Positions 28,708 through 48,104 of a DNA stretch of 64,000 bases are shown here, piece by piece. Under the pieces are notes generated by a model. It did not search any database, had not been told where the DNA came from, and saw nothing but the letters and a program-made list of their open reading frames with translations. How positions within the stretch are numbered: the first letter of the stretch is position 1; the number at the start of each line of letters is the position of its first letter. The translations under genes were made by a program, and so were the position numbers. The stretch comes from Dehalococcoides mccartyi 195 (GTDB taxonomy: Bacteria > Chloroflexota > Dehalococcoidia > Dehalococcoidales > Dehalococcoidaceae), in NCBI RefSeq assembly GCF_000011905.1, contig NC_002936.3, forward strand, positions 434,001 through 498,000. Direction: 5' to 3'.

Positions 28708-29775
28708 CTAACTTTCGGCCAACTCCTGTTTAAAGTAGTCTACCGCATCTATCGGGTAGGGGTCTACTCCATTCAGAAAAGCCAGATACAGGCTTACAAA
28801 GTCTCCCTGGAGGATTAAGCTGAGGGCCTGGCATAAGGGGCTGAAGCCGTAACCGTCAATGCTGAAAACAGGTATTTTAGCCTGGTGGAGAATATCGGTG
28901 GTAATTTTCATGCGCTGGTGGATACGTTTAGATAGAAAGGTGGTTTTAAACATAACCGCTGCCCAGTATCGGCCGGAATTTTGGGGCAGCTGGTATCCGA
29001 CTACCGAGTTGTGGTTCATTTCAGGTATTTCTTCGGCAAAAGCAAAACATTTGGCATTTTCATTCAGCTGGGTTTTAAAACGGCGGGCAGCCGGGAAAGT
29101 TACTCCTGAGCCGAATGCCATGACTGCCCGGCCTTCCAGTTTATCAGCCAGCTGTTTCGCGGGGTTGTTGCTGGTCTGGTATTTTTCTGACAGCCTTTCT
29201 GCAATCTGAGAAAGGACTATCAGGCTTTCGCTTACTTCGGCAGATTTGTTGGGTATAAAGCCCAGTTTGTGCAGGATGCTTAAAACAGGCAGCACCCCAT
29301 AGGCAATAGCGGTGCTTGGGCGGTAAGTATAGTCATAAACCAGTCCCGGTATATTATGTCCGGCCGCCATTTCTTTCAGTTCGCCGCCGGTGGTTAAGAC
29401 CAGCAGCTTGGCCTGGCGGCTGGCTGCCTGATTAAAACAGGATACTACTTCTTCGGTTGAGCCGGAACTGCTGGAAGCAATAACCAGTGTATCAGCCGAT
29501 ACATATGCCGGCAGCAGATAATCCTGATGGAGGTAGATAGGTATTTTACATTCATCCCGCACTATCCGCTCAGCCAGTTGGGCAGCCACTCCGGAAGTGC
29601 CCATACCCAGTATTACCACCTGTTTGACAGCCCGGTAATCTTCAGGCAGGTTTAGGGCTTCGGCAGTCTCCCAGGCCTGTTTGCAGAGTGAGGGCATACG
29701 CCGAAGTTCATCCAGCATATGGTTGGGGTCAAGTTTTGTATAAATATTTAAGTCATCAAGGTTTCTAATATCCAT
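28708..29775 (-). CDS. Bifunctional phosphoglucose/phosphomannose isomerase
   Basis: This 355-residue SIS-fold protein should interconvert glucose 6-phosphate or mannose 6-phosphate with fructose 6-phosphate. The first SIS domain carries ILGMGTSGVAAQLAERIV and VIASSSSGSTEEVVSCF. The second includes ENAKCFAFAEEIPEMNHNSV, the block with the catalytic Glu of the archaeal and bacterial PGI/PMI family. I chose ATG 29775 over the TTG at 29790. It follows the phosphohexomutase by about 24 bases, and together they link fructose 6-phosphate to hexose 1-phosphates. Confidence 0.85.
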   Translation of the reverse strand: MDIRNLDDLNIYTKLDPNHMLDELRRMPSLCKQAWETAEALNLPEDYRAVKQVVILGMGTSGVAAQLAERIVRDECKIPIYLHQDYLLPAYVSADTLVIASSSSGSTEEVVSCFNQAASRQAKLLVLTTGGELKEMAAGHNIPGLVYDYTYRPSTAIAYGVLPVLSILHKLGFIPNKSAEVSESLIVLSQIAERLSEKYQTSNNPAKQLADKLEGRAVMAFGSGVTFPAARRFKTQLNENAKCFAFAEEIPEMNHNSVVGYQLPQNSGRYWAAVMFKTTFLSKRIHQRMKITTDILHQAKIPVFSIDGYGFSPLCQALSLILQGDFVSLYLAFLNGVDPYPIDAVDYFKQELAES

Positions 29776-29799
29776 CAGGTATATCCCCAAGACAATATT

Positions 29800-31227
29800 T
29801 TAAATACCGGAAAGTTGGCGGCCGTCTTCCAGCAAAGCGGCGGTTTTAGCCTGGCTGGGGCTTTCGGCATATACCCGTAAGAGCGGTTCAGTGCCCGAAA
29901 AGCGGATAAGCAGCCAGCTGCCGTCTTCCAGTTTATAGCGGAAGCCATCCAGCTTGTCTGTAGAAACTACTTTGGTTTCACCCAGACTAGCCGGTTTTTG
30001 GTCCGTCAGGTGTTTTATTATTTCTTCCCGGCGGGCTTCGGCAAAGGTATAGTCAACCCGGTTGTAATAGTGAGGCCCAACCTTGGAATATAAATATTCC
30101 AGCATCTCGGCGGGTGATTTGCCAGTGGTAATCATAAAATCCAGAAAATACGCCCCCGCCAGTATGGCATCACGCTCAGGTACATGCCCGGTAAAAGCGT
30201 AACCTCCGCTTTCCTCACCGCCGATAAGGGCATTTTGCTCAAGCATAACCGGGGAGACATACTTGAAGCCGACTTTGGTTTCAAATACCGGCACATTATA
30301 AAGCTCACCCAGTTTATCTATCATACTGGAGTTGGTAATAGTTTTTACCAGCGGCCCGCGCAGCCCTTTTACTTCCAGCATATAAAGTGCCAGCAGGGAA
30401 AAGACCTGCAGCTGGTTAAGAAAGTTGCCCATTTCATCTACCACACCCAGACGGTCAGAATCCCCGTCGGTAGCCAGCCCTATATCTGAACGGATATCCT
30501 TGACCAGCCTCATCAGCTTAGCCAGATTAGGGGTGATAGGTTCAGGCTGAAGCATACCGGGGAAATTGGGGTTGGGTTCGGCATTTATCTCATTTAAGCG
30601 GTTGCAGCCGCCGTCAAGCAGTTGCTTGAAGTAGCCTATACCGGCACCATGCATAGAGTCTATGGCTATGTTAAAGCCGGCATCCCTAAGTTTTTCAATA
30701 TCTACCAGCCCGCCTATTTTTTCAAAGTAAGCCGGAGCAAGGTCTACATGTTCAATAAGACCGCGGGAAACTGCCGTATCAAAATCCAGATTAAGCACAG
30801 GCGGCTTATCACCCAGTTTGGCTATCTCTGCTTCAATACCGGTTATCATCTGGGTGGGGGCACTGGCTCCATCGGCGGATTTAACCTTGAAACCGTTCCA
30901 TCTGGCGGGGTTGTGGCTGGCGGTAATTATTACAGCCCCGGCCGCTTTCAGGTTTACCACCCCGTGGCTGATTACCGGCGTAGGGGTGGGGCATGAACAA
31001 AAATAAACCTTTATGCCGTTTGCTGCCATGACTTCGGCAGCCGAACGGGCAAAATCCGCTGAGGCAAAGCGGGTATCATACCCTATTACCAGTGAAAGGT
31101 TGCGGGGGCTGGTATTTTTCAGGTATGCGGCAGTAGCTTGGGCACAGACAGAGACATTATCAAAGGTAAAATCTTTGGCAATAATGCCCCGCCAACCATC
31201 AGTGCCGAACTTAATTTGGCTTGTTAT
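29800..31227 (-). CDS. Phosphoglucomutase/phosphomannomutase, probable AUA start
   Basis: The protein moves phosphate between C1 and C6 of hexoses. It has the catalytic phosphoserine loop TASHNPARWNGFKVK, the metal loop DGDSDRLGVVD, the sugar loop GGEESGGYAF and the phosphate-binding RFSGTEPLLRVYAE. The first ATG (31029) would remove the conserved N-terminus. Upstream, the frame stays open and encodes TSQIKFGTDGWRGIIAKDF, as expected for the family. The only codon placed correctly behind an AAAGGAG (9 bases) is ATA at 31227, giving 475 residues, a normal family length. So the start is either a rare AUA or a sequence error. It overlaps the small membrane gene by 17 bases. Confidence 0.85.
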   Translation of the reverse strand: MTSQIKFGTDGWRGIIAKDFTFDNVSVCAQATAAYLKNTSPRNLSLVIGYDTRFASADFARSAAEVMAANGIKVYFCSCPTPTPVISHGVVNLKAAGAVIITASHNPARWNGFKVKSADGASAPTQMITGIEAEIAKLGDKPPVLNLDFDTAVSRGLIEHVDLAPAYFEKIGGLVDIEKLRDAGFNIAIDSMHGAGIGYFKQLLDGGCNRLNEINAEPNPNFPGMLQPEPITPNLAKLMRLVKDIRSDIGLATDGDSDRLGVVDEMGNFLNQLQVFSLLALYMLEVKGLRGPLVKTITNSSMIDKLGELYNVPVFETKVGFKYVSPVMLEQNALIGGEESGGYAFTGHVPERDAILAGAYFLDFMITTGKSPAEMLEYLYSKVGPHYYNRVDYTFAEARREEIIKHLTDQKPASLGETKVVSTDKLDGFRYKLEDGSWLLIRFSGTEPLLRVYAESPSQAKTAALLEDGRQLSGI

Positions 31228-31414
31228 TTTGGCTGTCTCCTTTGAATATTTTGCTCAATATAAAGATAACAGAGCCCAGAATAAGTACTACCGGCAGGAA
31301 TAGTACCATGATGACGAACGTAAGTCCGGCCAGCCCCATTACGGTAGCCAGCACAATTACGGCCAGTTCAACTATAATCGCCCCAAAGAAGGCCAGCAAC
31401 ACAGTCTTTATCAT
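31211..31414 (-). CDS. Small two-helix membrane protein, function unknown
   Basis: This 67-residue protein starts at ATG 31414, with AGGAAGG seven bases upstream. Most of it is hydrophobic: residues 2-28 (LLAFFGAIIVELAVIVLATV region) and 32-55 (VIMVLFLPVVLILGSVIFIL). A short polar tail, KGDSQNNKPN, follows. It lies between metK and the phosphohexomutase and overlaps the latter, so it is part of the operon. No family is recognised. Confidence 0.7.
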   Translation of the reverse strand: MIKTVLLAFFGAIIVELAVIVLATVMGLAGLTFVIMVLFLPVVLILGSVIFILSKIFKGDSQNNKPN

Positions 31415-31446: not shown

Positions 31447-32667
31447 TTACTTGGATACGCTTAGGGATTCCATAGTGGCCTTTATGGCATCTACCTTATC
31501 CAGCCGTTCCCACGGCAGGTCCAGTTCCGGGCGTCCCAGATGGCCATAAGCAGCAGTCTGGCGGTAAATAGGGCGGCGAAGCCCCAGGTTACGGATAATA
31601 GCTTCCGGCCGCAAATCAAAGTGTTTCTGGATAATGGACAGGATATCTTCATGGCTCATGCGGGCGGTGTTGAAAGTCTCAATGGAAACTGACAACGGGT
31701 GGGCAACCCCGATAACATAAGCTACCTGAATTTCCAGCCTGTCTGCCAGTCCGGCCGCTACCAGATTTTTGGCAATATATCTGGCCATGTAGCAGGCAGA
31801 GCGGTCTACTTTAGTGGGGTCTTTGCCGGAGAAAGCGCCGCCGCCGTGGCGGGCAAAACCGCCGTAGGTATCTACCAGGATTTTGCGTCCGGTAAAACCG
31901 GTGTCAGAAACCGGACCGCCTACTACAAAGCGGCCGGTGGCGTTTACATAATATTCGGTATTTTCGTCTAGCAGGTTGGTGGGGATAATAGGTTTGATAA
32001 CCTCCCGGATAATATCTGCCTGAATTTTTTCGGTAGTTACATCCGGGTCATGCTGAGCGCCGATAACCACGCTGCTTATCCTTTTGGCCTCTCCGTTGTG
32101 GTATTCCACTGTTACCTGGCTTTTGCCGTCAGGACGCAGGTAGGCCAGCGTGCCGTTTTTGCGTACTTCAGACAAACGCTTGCTCAGGCGGTGGGCTAAA
32201 GAAATGGGCAGGGGCATATATTCCGGGGTTTCGGTGCAGGCATAACCAAACATCATTCCCTGGTCACCGGCGCCGGTCAGGTCAAGTTCATCTACCTGCC
32301 CGCTCTTGGCCTCCTGAGATTTGTTAACTCCCAGAGCTATATCAGGAGACTGGCGGTTAATAGAAGTGAGTACGCCGCAGGTGCGGTCATCAAAGCCGTA
32401 TTCGGGCTTGGTGTAGCCTATATCTTTTATAACCCCCCTGACCAGTTCGGGTATTTCCACGTAGCAACTGGTGGTTATTTCACCCATGACTACCACTAGA
32501 CCATTGGTTACGGCGGTTTCACAGGCAACATGGGCATTGGGGTCTTTGGCTATGATAGCGTCCAGAACTGCGTCAGAAATCTGGTCGCAAATCTTATCCG
32601 GGTGTCCTTCGGTAACTGATTCCGAGGTAAAAAGATATTTTGAAGAATTCCCAAAAGTCTGAGACAT
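31447..32667 (-). CDS. metK: S-adenosylmethionine synthetase
   Basis: This 406-residue enzyme should make SAM from methionine and ATP. The ATP-binding [18 protein letters not shown] lies at residues 16-33, the [15 protein letters not shown] block near 132, and the P-loop-like [20 protein letters not shown] near 274. Length is slightly above the usual bacterial 384-400. It lies 9 bases after ahcY, so the enzyme that makes SAM and the one that removes SAH are cotranscribed. Confidence 0.97.
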
Positions 32668-46773: not shown

Positions 46774-46803
46774 TTGACTAATGATGGGTAAAAGGGCTAG
46801 GAT
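46774..46803 (+). promoter_or_regulatory. Promoter of the glmM operon
   Basis: TTGACT (46774-46779) and TAGGAT (46798-46803) are 18 bases apart. The -10 ends 8 bases before the glmM ATG, so a leaderless transcript is likely. Confidence 0.65.
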
Positions 46804-46811
46804 TTAGCCGT

Positions 46812-48104
46812 ATGGGATTATTCGGAACTTCCGGCATCCGCCGTTTGGTAGATGAGCGTTTAATGGAAATAGCTCTGAAGGTAGGGTTTTCAGTAGGAAA
46901 ACGCTACCGGAGAGTGGTTTTGGCGGGTGACAGCCGCACTTCAACCCCGGCTATCAAACGCATACTCAGCGGGGCGCTGGTTTCCGCCGGGGCAGATGTA
47001 GTTGATATAGGATTGGTGCCTACGCCTACCTTGGCCTTTATGGTCCGGGATTTTGATGCCGGTCTGATGGTAACCGCTTCACACAACACGGCTGAATACA
47101 ACGGTATCAAGTTTCTTAATCCTGACGGCTCAGCCTTCAGTTACCTGCAGCAGCAGGAAATAACCAAAGATGTTGAATCAAGCCGTGCCCACCCCATGAA
47201 GTGGGATAGTTTCGGCCAGATAAATGCCTTTCCCTCTACTGTTGAAAAACATATGGAGCATATACTTGGTTATTTGCCGGACAAATGCCGTCTTAAGGTG
47301 GTGGTGGATTGCGGCGGCGGGGCGGCATCCGTTATAACCCCTTGGCTGCTTCAGCGTATGGGCAGCCGGGTGATTTCCCTGAATGATACTACCCACGGCT
47401 TTTTCCCTCACCCGCCTGAACCGCTGGCTGAAAATCTTAGCGGGCTGATACAGACCGTCAAAGAAAGCGATGCTGATTTGGGTATTGCCCATGACGGTGA
47501 TGCCGACCGGATGGTAGCGGTGGATAAGCACGGAAACTTTATTTCGGGTGACAAGATGCTGGTGCTTTTTGCCAGAGCTGCCAGGGCAGACAAGGTGGTT
47601 ACCACTCTGGATGCTTCTATGGCAGTAGACGAGATGGGGTTTAAGGTTATCCGTACGGCTGTGGGTGACAACTATGTTTCCGAGGAACTTAAACGGCAGG
47701 GTAACTTCGGGGGTGAGCCCTGCGGTGCCTGGGTCTTTCCCGAAAGCTCTCTTTGCCCTGACGGTATTTATGCCGCTGCCAGACTACTAAACCTGGTTTC
47801 TCACCAGCCCCTTTCAGAACTTATTTCGGATATACCGGAATATTCCATGAAGAGAGGCAGTGTGGAAGGCAGCGGTTTGAATCTGGCCCTGGTTGAGGAA
47901 TCACTCCAGTGCCTGAATCCTCTTTCCTCCAGCCTGCTGGACGGTATAAAATTAAACCTGAAAGATGGCTGGCTGCTTATCCGCCCTTCGGGTACAGAGC
48001 CTAAAATCCGCCTGACGGCCGAAGCCAGAACACCGGAGTACTGTGAGACTATTTACCAAACCGGGCTTAAGTGCCTGAAGAGCTGTCTTTCCCGGGAGAA
48101 ATAA
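46812..48104 (+). CDS. glmM: Phosphoglucosamine mutase-like phosphohexomutase
   Basis: This 430-residue protein should convert glucosamine 6-phosphate to glucosamine 1-phosphate. It has GLFGTSGIRRLVDERLME at the N-terminus, the phosphoserine loop TASHNTAEYNGIKF near residue 96, metal loop AHDGDADRMVAVD near 228 and phosphate loop RPSGTEPKIRLTAEAR near 395. The sugar loop GGEPCGAWVFPESSLCPDGI looks more like archaeal mutases than like bacterial GlmM with GEQSG. The gene is the first of a cluster with two nucleotidyltransferases and glmS. The substrate is inferred from that cluster. Confidence 0.85.
   Translation: MGLFGTSGIRRLVDERLMEIALKVGFSVGKRYRRVVLAGDSRTSTPAIKRILSGALVSAGADVVDIGLVPTPTLAFMVRDFDAGLMVTASHNTAEYNGIKFLNPDGSAFSYLQQQEITKDVESSRAHPMKWDSFGQINAFPSTVEKHMEHILGYLPDKCRLKVVVDCGGGAASVITPWLLQRMGSRVISLNDTTHGFFPHPPEPLAENLSGLIQTVKESDADLGIAHDGDADRMVAVDKHGNFISGDKMLVLFARAARADKVVTTLDASMAVDEMGFKVIRTAVGDNYVSEELKRQGNFGGEPCGAWVFPESSLCPDGIYAAARLLNLVSHQPLSELISDIPEYSMKRGSVEGSGLNLALVEESLQCLNPLSSSLLDGIKLNLKDGWLLIRPSGTEPKIRLTAEARTPEYCETIYQTGLKCLKSCLSREK

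Follow-up and report, generated by a model that had tools for sequence, protein, structure and literature searches.

A probable AUA start codon of a phosphohexomutase gene in Dehalococcoides mccartyi 195

Where translation begins is the question raised by a phosphohexomutase gene (PGM/PMM family) of Dehalococcoides mccartyi 195, the conserved N-terminus of the enzyme being encoded ahead of any ATG, GTG or TTG of its frame. The gene lies in the window studied here (64,000 nucleotides; positions 434001–498000 of the single contig of 1,469,720 bases); features are numbered within the window and collected in Table 1. The frame is open from 31254 to 29800 on the minus strand (484 codons, bounded by the stop at 31257–31255) and reads after the TGA: GCA AAA TAT TCA AAG GAG ACA GCC AAA ATA (31227–31225), followed by ACA AGC CAA ATT AAG TTC (31209) GGC ACT GAT GGT TGG CGG. 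The first canonical codon, ATG 31029, is codon 76, with none in the 75 codons ahead; the motif FGTDGWRG runs from 31209 onward, 60 codons upstream of this ATG. All four PGM/PMM domains (Pfam PF02878, PF02879, PF02880 and PF00408; domains I–IV) were matched above cut-off, domain I starting at frame residue 14, 62 codons upstream of ATG 31029; the frame was taken as a real gene because domains I–IV are present and domain I begins upstream of any canonical start. The locus tag of the mutase is, we assume, DET0510; no paper was found in the literature under 'DET0510'.

Table 1: Features at the 5' end of the phosphohexomutase gene and adjoining genes (window coordinates).
Feature	Position	Strand	Remarks
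Phosphohexomutase (PGM/PMM family) CDS, read from ATA	29800..31227	-	475 codons; ORF reading, Pfam
ATA, proposed start codon	31225..31227	-	in 3/3 genus genomes
Shine–Dalgarno sequence AAAGGAG	31237..31243	-	9 bases ahead of ATA; AAGGGGG in two relatives
Invariant 33-base run	31205..31237	-	three-genome alignment of the genus
Small membrane-protein ORF, 67 aa	31211..31414	-	in 3/3 genus genomes
In-frame stop TGA (TAA in two relatives)	31255..31257	-	bars starts further upstream
ATG, first canonical codon of the mutase frame	31027..31029	-	within domain I, downstream of the conserved N-terminus
Bifunctional phosphoglucose/phosphomannose isomerase, next gene	28708..29790	-	ORF and profile matches
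metK (S-adenosylmethionine synthetase), upstream of the small ORF	31447..32667	-	ORF and Pfam

The original prediction had proposed a start at ATA 31227, pointing to the N-terminus encoded in one open frame ahead of the first ATG, to the suitable distance of this codon from AAAGGAG and to the lack of ATG, GTG or TTG nearby; each of these observations was reproduced. The spacing from AAAGGAG (31243–31237) to ATA is 9 bases (ACAGCCAAA); ATT 31215, the sole further near-cognate codon in the stretch from the stop to FGT, lies 21 bases after GGAG. Three marks of a natural AUA start (no compatible canonical start, a workable Shine–Dalgarno distance, ATA kept in relatives) were found, and translation of the mutase from AUA 31227–31225, the best reading of the nucleotide sequence, is considered very likely. 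The strong Shine–Dalgarno sequence would put initiator fMet-tRNA on this AUA; we infer that the protein begins with Met and is formed in lower yield than from AUG. Gene finders restricted to ATG, GTG and TTG would strip the first 66 residues from the enzyme.

As had been proposed as a check, the codon was examined in related genomes: ATA ACA AGC CAA ATT AAG is identical in 3/3 Dehalococcoides genomes, the mutase proteins of the window and the two others being 89–90% identical, and in both relatives the stop that closes the frame upstream stands in the place it has in the window. The three-way alignment of the junction (686 columns) is 82.7% invariant; its longest invariant run, 33 nt, reaches from the last Shine–Dalgarno base through the ATA to the first FG codons of the mutase. 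Upstream of the ATA (by eye), base changes in the relatives replace 4 of 9 codons of the mutase frame and largely preserve the amino acids of the small ORF. The run alone is no proof of selection on the start codon, since half of it also codes for the small ORF, and conservation of the start rests on few lineages, n being 3 genomes of the genus.

A wider comparison was made in a census of 150 Dehalococcoidia genomes, mutase start regions being located by FGT(D/E/S)GWR: 11 genomes came from the family, 116 from elsewhere in the class sample (27 + 78 + 11 loci), and 23 were added from the order of the distant genome G128 (24 loci, one a repeat); 18 of 142 matched genomes, with distant or partial matches only, were left out, as were, in one search, matches without a returned locus unless previously inspected. 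A canonical ATG, GTG or TTG was found within 20 codons of the motif in 146 genomes; the four others are the three Dehalococcoides and G128. Among loci on GTDB contigs, which may overlap with the census, 38/39 had a canonical start, the last (L054) being cut at its 5' end. The ATA stands 6 codons ahead of FGTDGWRG; relatives mostly have ATG, GTG or TTG at 3–12 codons, and the sister genus has ATG at 8–11 codons before the motif in 8/8 genomes. The mutase of G128 (L178:1790–1804) reads AAGGGGGTGAGG TAA ATA AAT CCA ATT AAA TTT GGC; its start can only be ATA or ATT, because a stop directly precedes the ATA. G128 is a single distant draft genome, the only member of its family in the sample, and carries metK, not the small ORF, shortly upstream of the mutase. 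Recurrence of the ATA without the small ORF leans mildly, at the level of sequence comparison, towards selection for a weak start. In genome G085 (L145) two FGTDGWR start regions were seen 76 bases apart in different frames, which suggests that the 5' end of that mutase is broken or duplicated.

The small ORF upstream overlaps the ATA-started mutase by its last 17 nt (31211–31227) in 3/3 genus genomes, and its stop is placed 12–14 bases downstream of the AUA, so that the mutase start lies near the stop of the upstream ORF, as in coupled pairs. No family was matched for the small ORF in Pfam and NCBIfam; a relative, 38% identical, precedes an ATG-started mutase in L036. Pairing energies of the Shine–Dalgarno sequence, computed with generic anti-Shine–Dalgarno letters and compared with 67 window genes, were predicted as -8.9 kcal/mol in the window (top 15%) and -10.3 kcal/mol in the relatives (top 7.5%). 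Folding of the mRNA at the start was no better than that of shuffles in the three genomes (z -0.32, 0.92 and 0.81), and a hairpin hiding the Shine–Dalgarno sequence was therefore rejected.

Translational coupling and IF3 sensitivity of the mutase start appear somewhat probable. Terminating ribosomes can scan both ways and re-initiate nearby (PMC2268962); those ending the small ORF probably keep the AUA site open or re-initiate backwards. IF3 would hold down the mutase AUA, and its own gene infC is apparently AUA-started too.

The strongest competing explanation accepts the AUA as start and denies it a regulatory meaning: a one-time drift, held by an Asn codon of the small ORF that ATG would turn into Asp. 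It has slightly less than an even chance. The 17-nt overlap and the C-terminal nine residues of the small ORF, GDSQNNKPN, identical in the 3 genus genomes, speak for such a constraint; a residue change in so short a tail should, however, be easily tolerated, the strong Shine–Dalgarno sequence was kept and is predicted to be stronger in the relatives, and ATA recurs in G128, where metK, not the small ORF, precedes the mutase.

An improbable variant shifts the start four codons further on, to AUU 31215, an in-frame near-cognate codon kept in the 3 genomes and of the type used by E. coli infC; this codon is, however, 21 bases from the Shine–Dalgarno sequence, has none of its own (by eye), and encodes the I of an I-K-F motif shared with many relatives that start at ATG, so that the protein accounts for its conservation. 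Fusion of the enzyme to the membrane protein encoded upstream, by a +1 frameshift, would suit the overlapping frames, the single transcript direction and the +1 register of the mutase relative to the small ORF; it is very improbable, no recognised slippery site being seen in the overlap by eye, an SD-like element lying ~20 nt from the small ORF stop, and a fusion being needed by 0/146 relatives with canonical starts. Just as little probability was given to a truncated protein of 409 aa made from ATG 31029 only, or to a decaying gene: this ATG is the first canonical codon and is present in all three genomes, but the stretch ahead of it holds FGTDGWRG, aligns with the best solved homologue from near the N-terminus, and shows 4/12/30 substitutions at codon positions 1/2/3 versus the two relatives (30/46 at third positions) and no stops; because of this third-position bias and the absence of stops it is held to evolve as coding sequence under protein-level constraint. 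Sequencing error or a strain-private mutation is practically excluded (the error at assembly level), because the identical ATA occurs in three separate genomes with differences at other alignment positions; nothing was found in its favour. Sequencing error and a single-base change from ATG had been named at the outset as the simple alternatives; the ATA common to the 3 genus genomes excludes the error and a recent change of this kind.

The AUA start of the mutase would join a class already known in bacteria. Experiments in S. aureus have documented AUA starts for infC, ccpN and citZ; in poor medium the AUA reporters of ccpN and citZ reached ~10% of the AUG level, in rich medium that of ccpN up to 30%, and the infC, cvfC1 and ccpN sites have extended Shine–Dalgarno sequences (PMC13009471). 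Like the mutase, infC, ccpN and citZ combine AUA with a strong Shine–Dalgarno sequence, ccpN being conserved in related genomes and citZ a metabolic gene; unlike the mutase start, read from sequence, those of S. aureus were shown by ribosome profiling and reporters, and they belong to different genes in a different phylum. In Listeria monocytogenes the genes rsbV and rsbW share 17 bp, and the activity of rsbW starts follows the order ATG > ATA > ATT (PMC13068326); both rsbW and the mutase thus have the start codon inside a 17-nt overlap with the upstream gene, ATG being the normal codon and ATA a variant in rsbW, whereas ATA is found in all three genus genomes for the mutase.

IF3 represses near-cognate starts, infC itself beginning with ATT in E. 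coli and ATC in Streptomyces; the GTC start of Streptomyces sigR is likewise repressed by IF3 (PMC5472188). As in infC autoregulation, a near-cognate start and repression by IF3 are expected for the mutase, and infC of Dehalococcoides itself has ATA; unlike infC, the mutase is no translation factor, hence an autoregulatory loop is not expected. A further parallel is sigR, which has no role in translation and is kept at low expression by its unusual start; its codon is another one, and for sigR the effect was shown experimentally. A literature search, thin in its coverage of subscription papers, turned up no description of AUA initiation for Dehalococcoides; a plasmid similarity search gave one short unrelated match only.

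Other starts of this type were sought over the genome by a scan for a strong Shine–Dalgarno sequence followed by ATA only (108 sites examined). The filter required a frame open over 50 codons or more that had no canonical codon upstream and whose first canonical codon came 8 codons in or later. Seven of the 108 sites passed; for three of them, the genes infC, trhA and that of the mutase, a start at ATA is credible. The remaining four were a palindrome (L268), two short frames (L291 and L297) and the frame L328, judged by eye a shadow. The palindrome was rejected as an AUA start, being terminator-like sequence that mimics a Shine–Dalgarno sequence with ATA (L268/L269); at L269:1487–1516 it is a perfect one of 30 bases, flanked by runs of A and T and lying between two same-strand genes, and probably a terminator. 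Counts of the Shine–Dalgarno plus ATA pattern did not exceed those of a reversed-pattern control in the genome (18 v 29, 55 v 54 and 29 v 49); a genome-wide habit was rejected for this reason, AUA starts being rare exceptions.

infC (IF3; genome positions 691727–692246, minus strand): ATA stands at the start site in 11/11 family genomes; all three Dehalococcoides read AAGGAGG TAG CCA GGA ATA TTT AAG, with no alternative start ahead of the conserved motif. A canonical codon before this motif is absent in 9/11 family genomes; in 2 of the 8 sister-genus genomes one occurs further upstream, out of register. By eye, a near-cognate infC start is likely in much of the class as well. An AGCCA motif between Shine–Dalgarno sequence and ATA, seemingly common to infC and mutase, was treated as chance: the registers differ by one base, and the pattern in the infC register has only two occurrences in the genome, one of them infC itself.

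trhA (haemolysin-III-related/TrhA membrane protein; genome positions 216394–217083, plus strand): the aligned start in the 11 family genomes is ATA (4; Dehalococcoides and one sister genome) or ATC (7, each a sister genome), preceded in Dehalococcoides by a strong Shine–Dalgarno sequence. In 6/11 genomes the stretch from the upstream stop to the conserved motif contains no canonical codon; in the other 5 the nearest lies 15–32 codons ahead of the motif.

It is conceivable, if rather doubtful, that the Dehalococcoidaceae keep a small IF3-gated set of AUA- and AUC-started genes: infC, trhA, a gene of membrane homeostasis, and, in Dehalococcoides, also the phosphohexomutase. If so, initiation fidelity would directly tune sugar-phosphate supply and membrane state, and the ATA of G128 would mean that this enzyme had been recruited there independently. 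A genus-conserved AUA in a gene of central metabolism, the ATA at infC and the ATA/ATC at trhA would form a small natural set, with which one can ask if non-model bacteria regulate through weak start codons.

Within the window, a survey took in 236 stop-to-stop frames with a length of 80 codons or more (226 aligned in both relatives); third-position bias was found in 104 frames and a coding-like extension was flagged in five, the mutase among them, the other four (81–129 codons) lying opposite longer genes and being taken as antisense shadows. In a separate check, 6/73 retained window frames had no canonical start in the first 25 codons: the mutase, four frames taken as shadows, and 7948–6806, which was rejected as an odd-start gene, being an ordinary DAHP synthase with AAAGGAG and ATG behind a terminator-like hairpin.

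As to function, the mutase falls below the NCBIfam equivalog cut-offs for GlmM and PMM (best TIGR03990, 294 bits vs 439); among solved structures its best homologue by sequence is the putative phosphomannomutase 1tuo, the alignment beginning near the N-terminus. The adjoining isomerase suggests that the mutase supplies phosphates of mannose or glucose. The one paper found on D. mccartyi together with phosphomannomutase deals with the production of mannosylglycerate, which the organism forms from GDP-mannose (PMC8490865). A second PGM/PMM-family gene is present in the window at 46785–48104 (plus strand).
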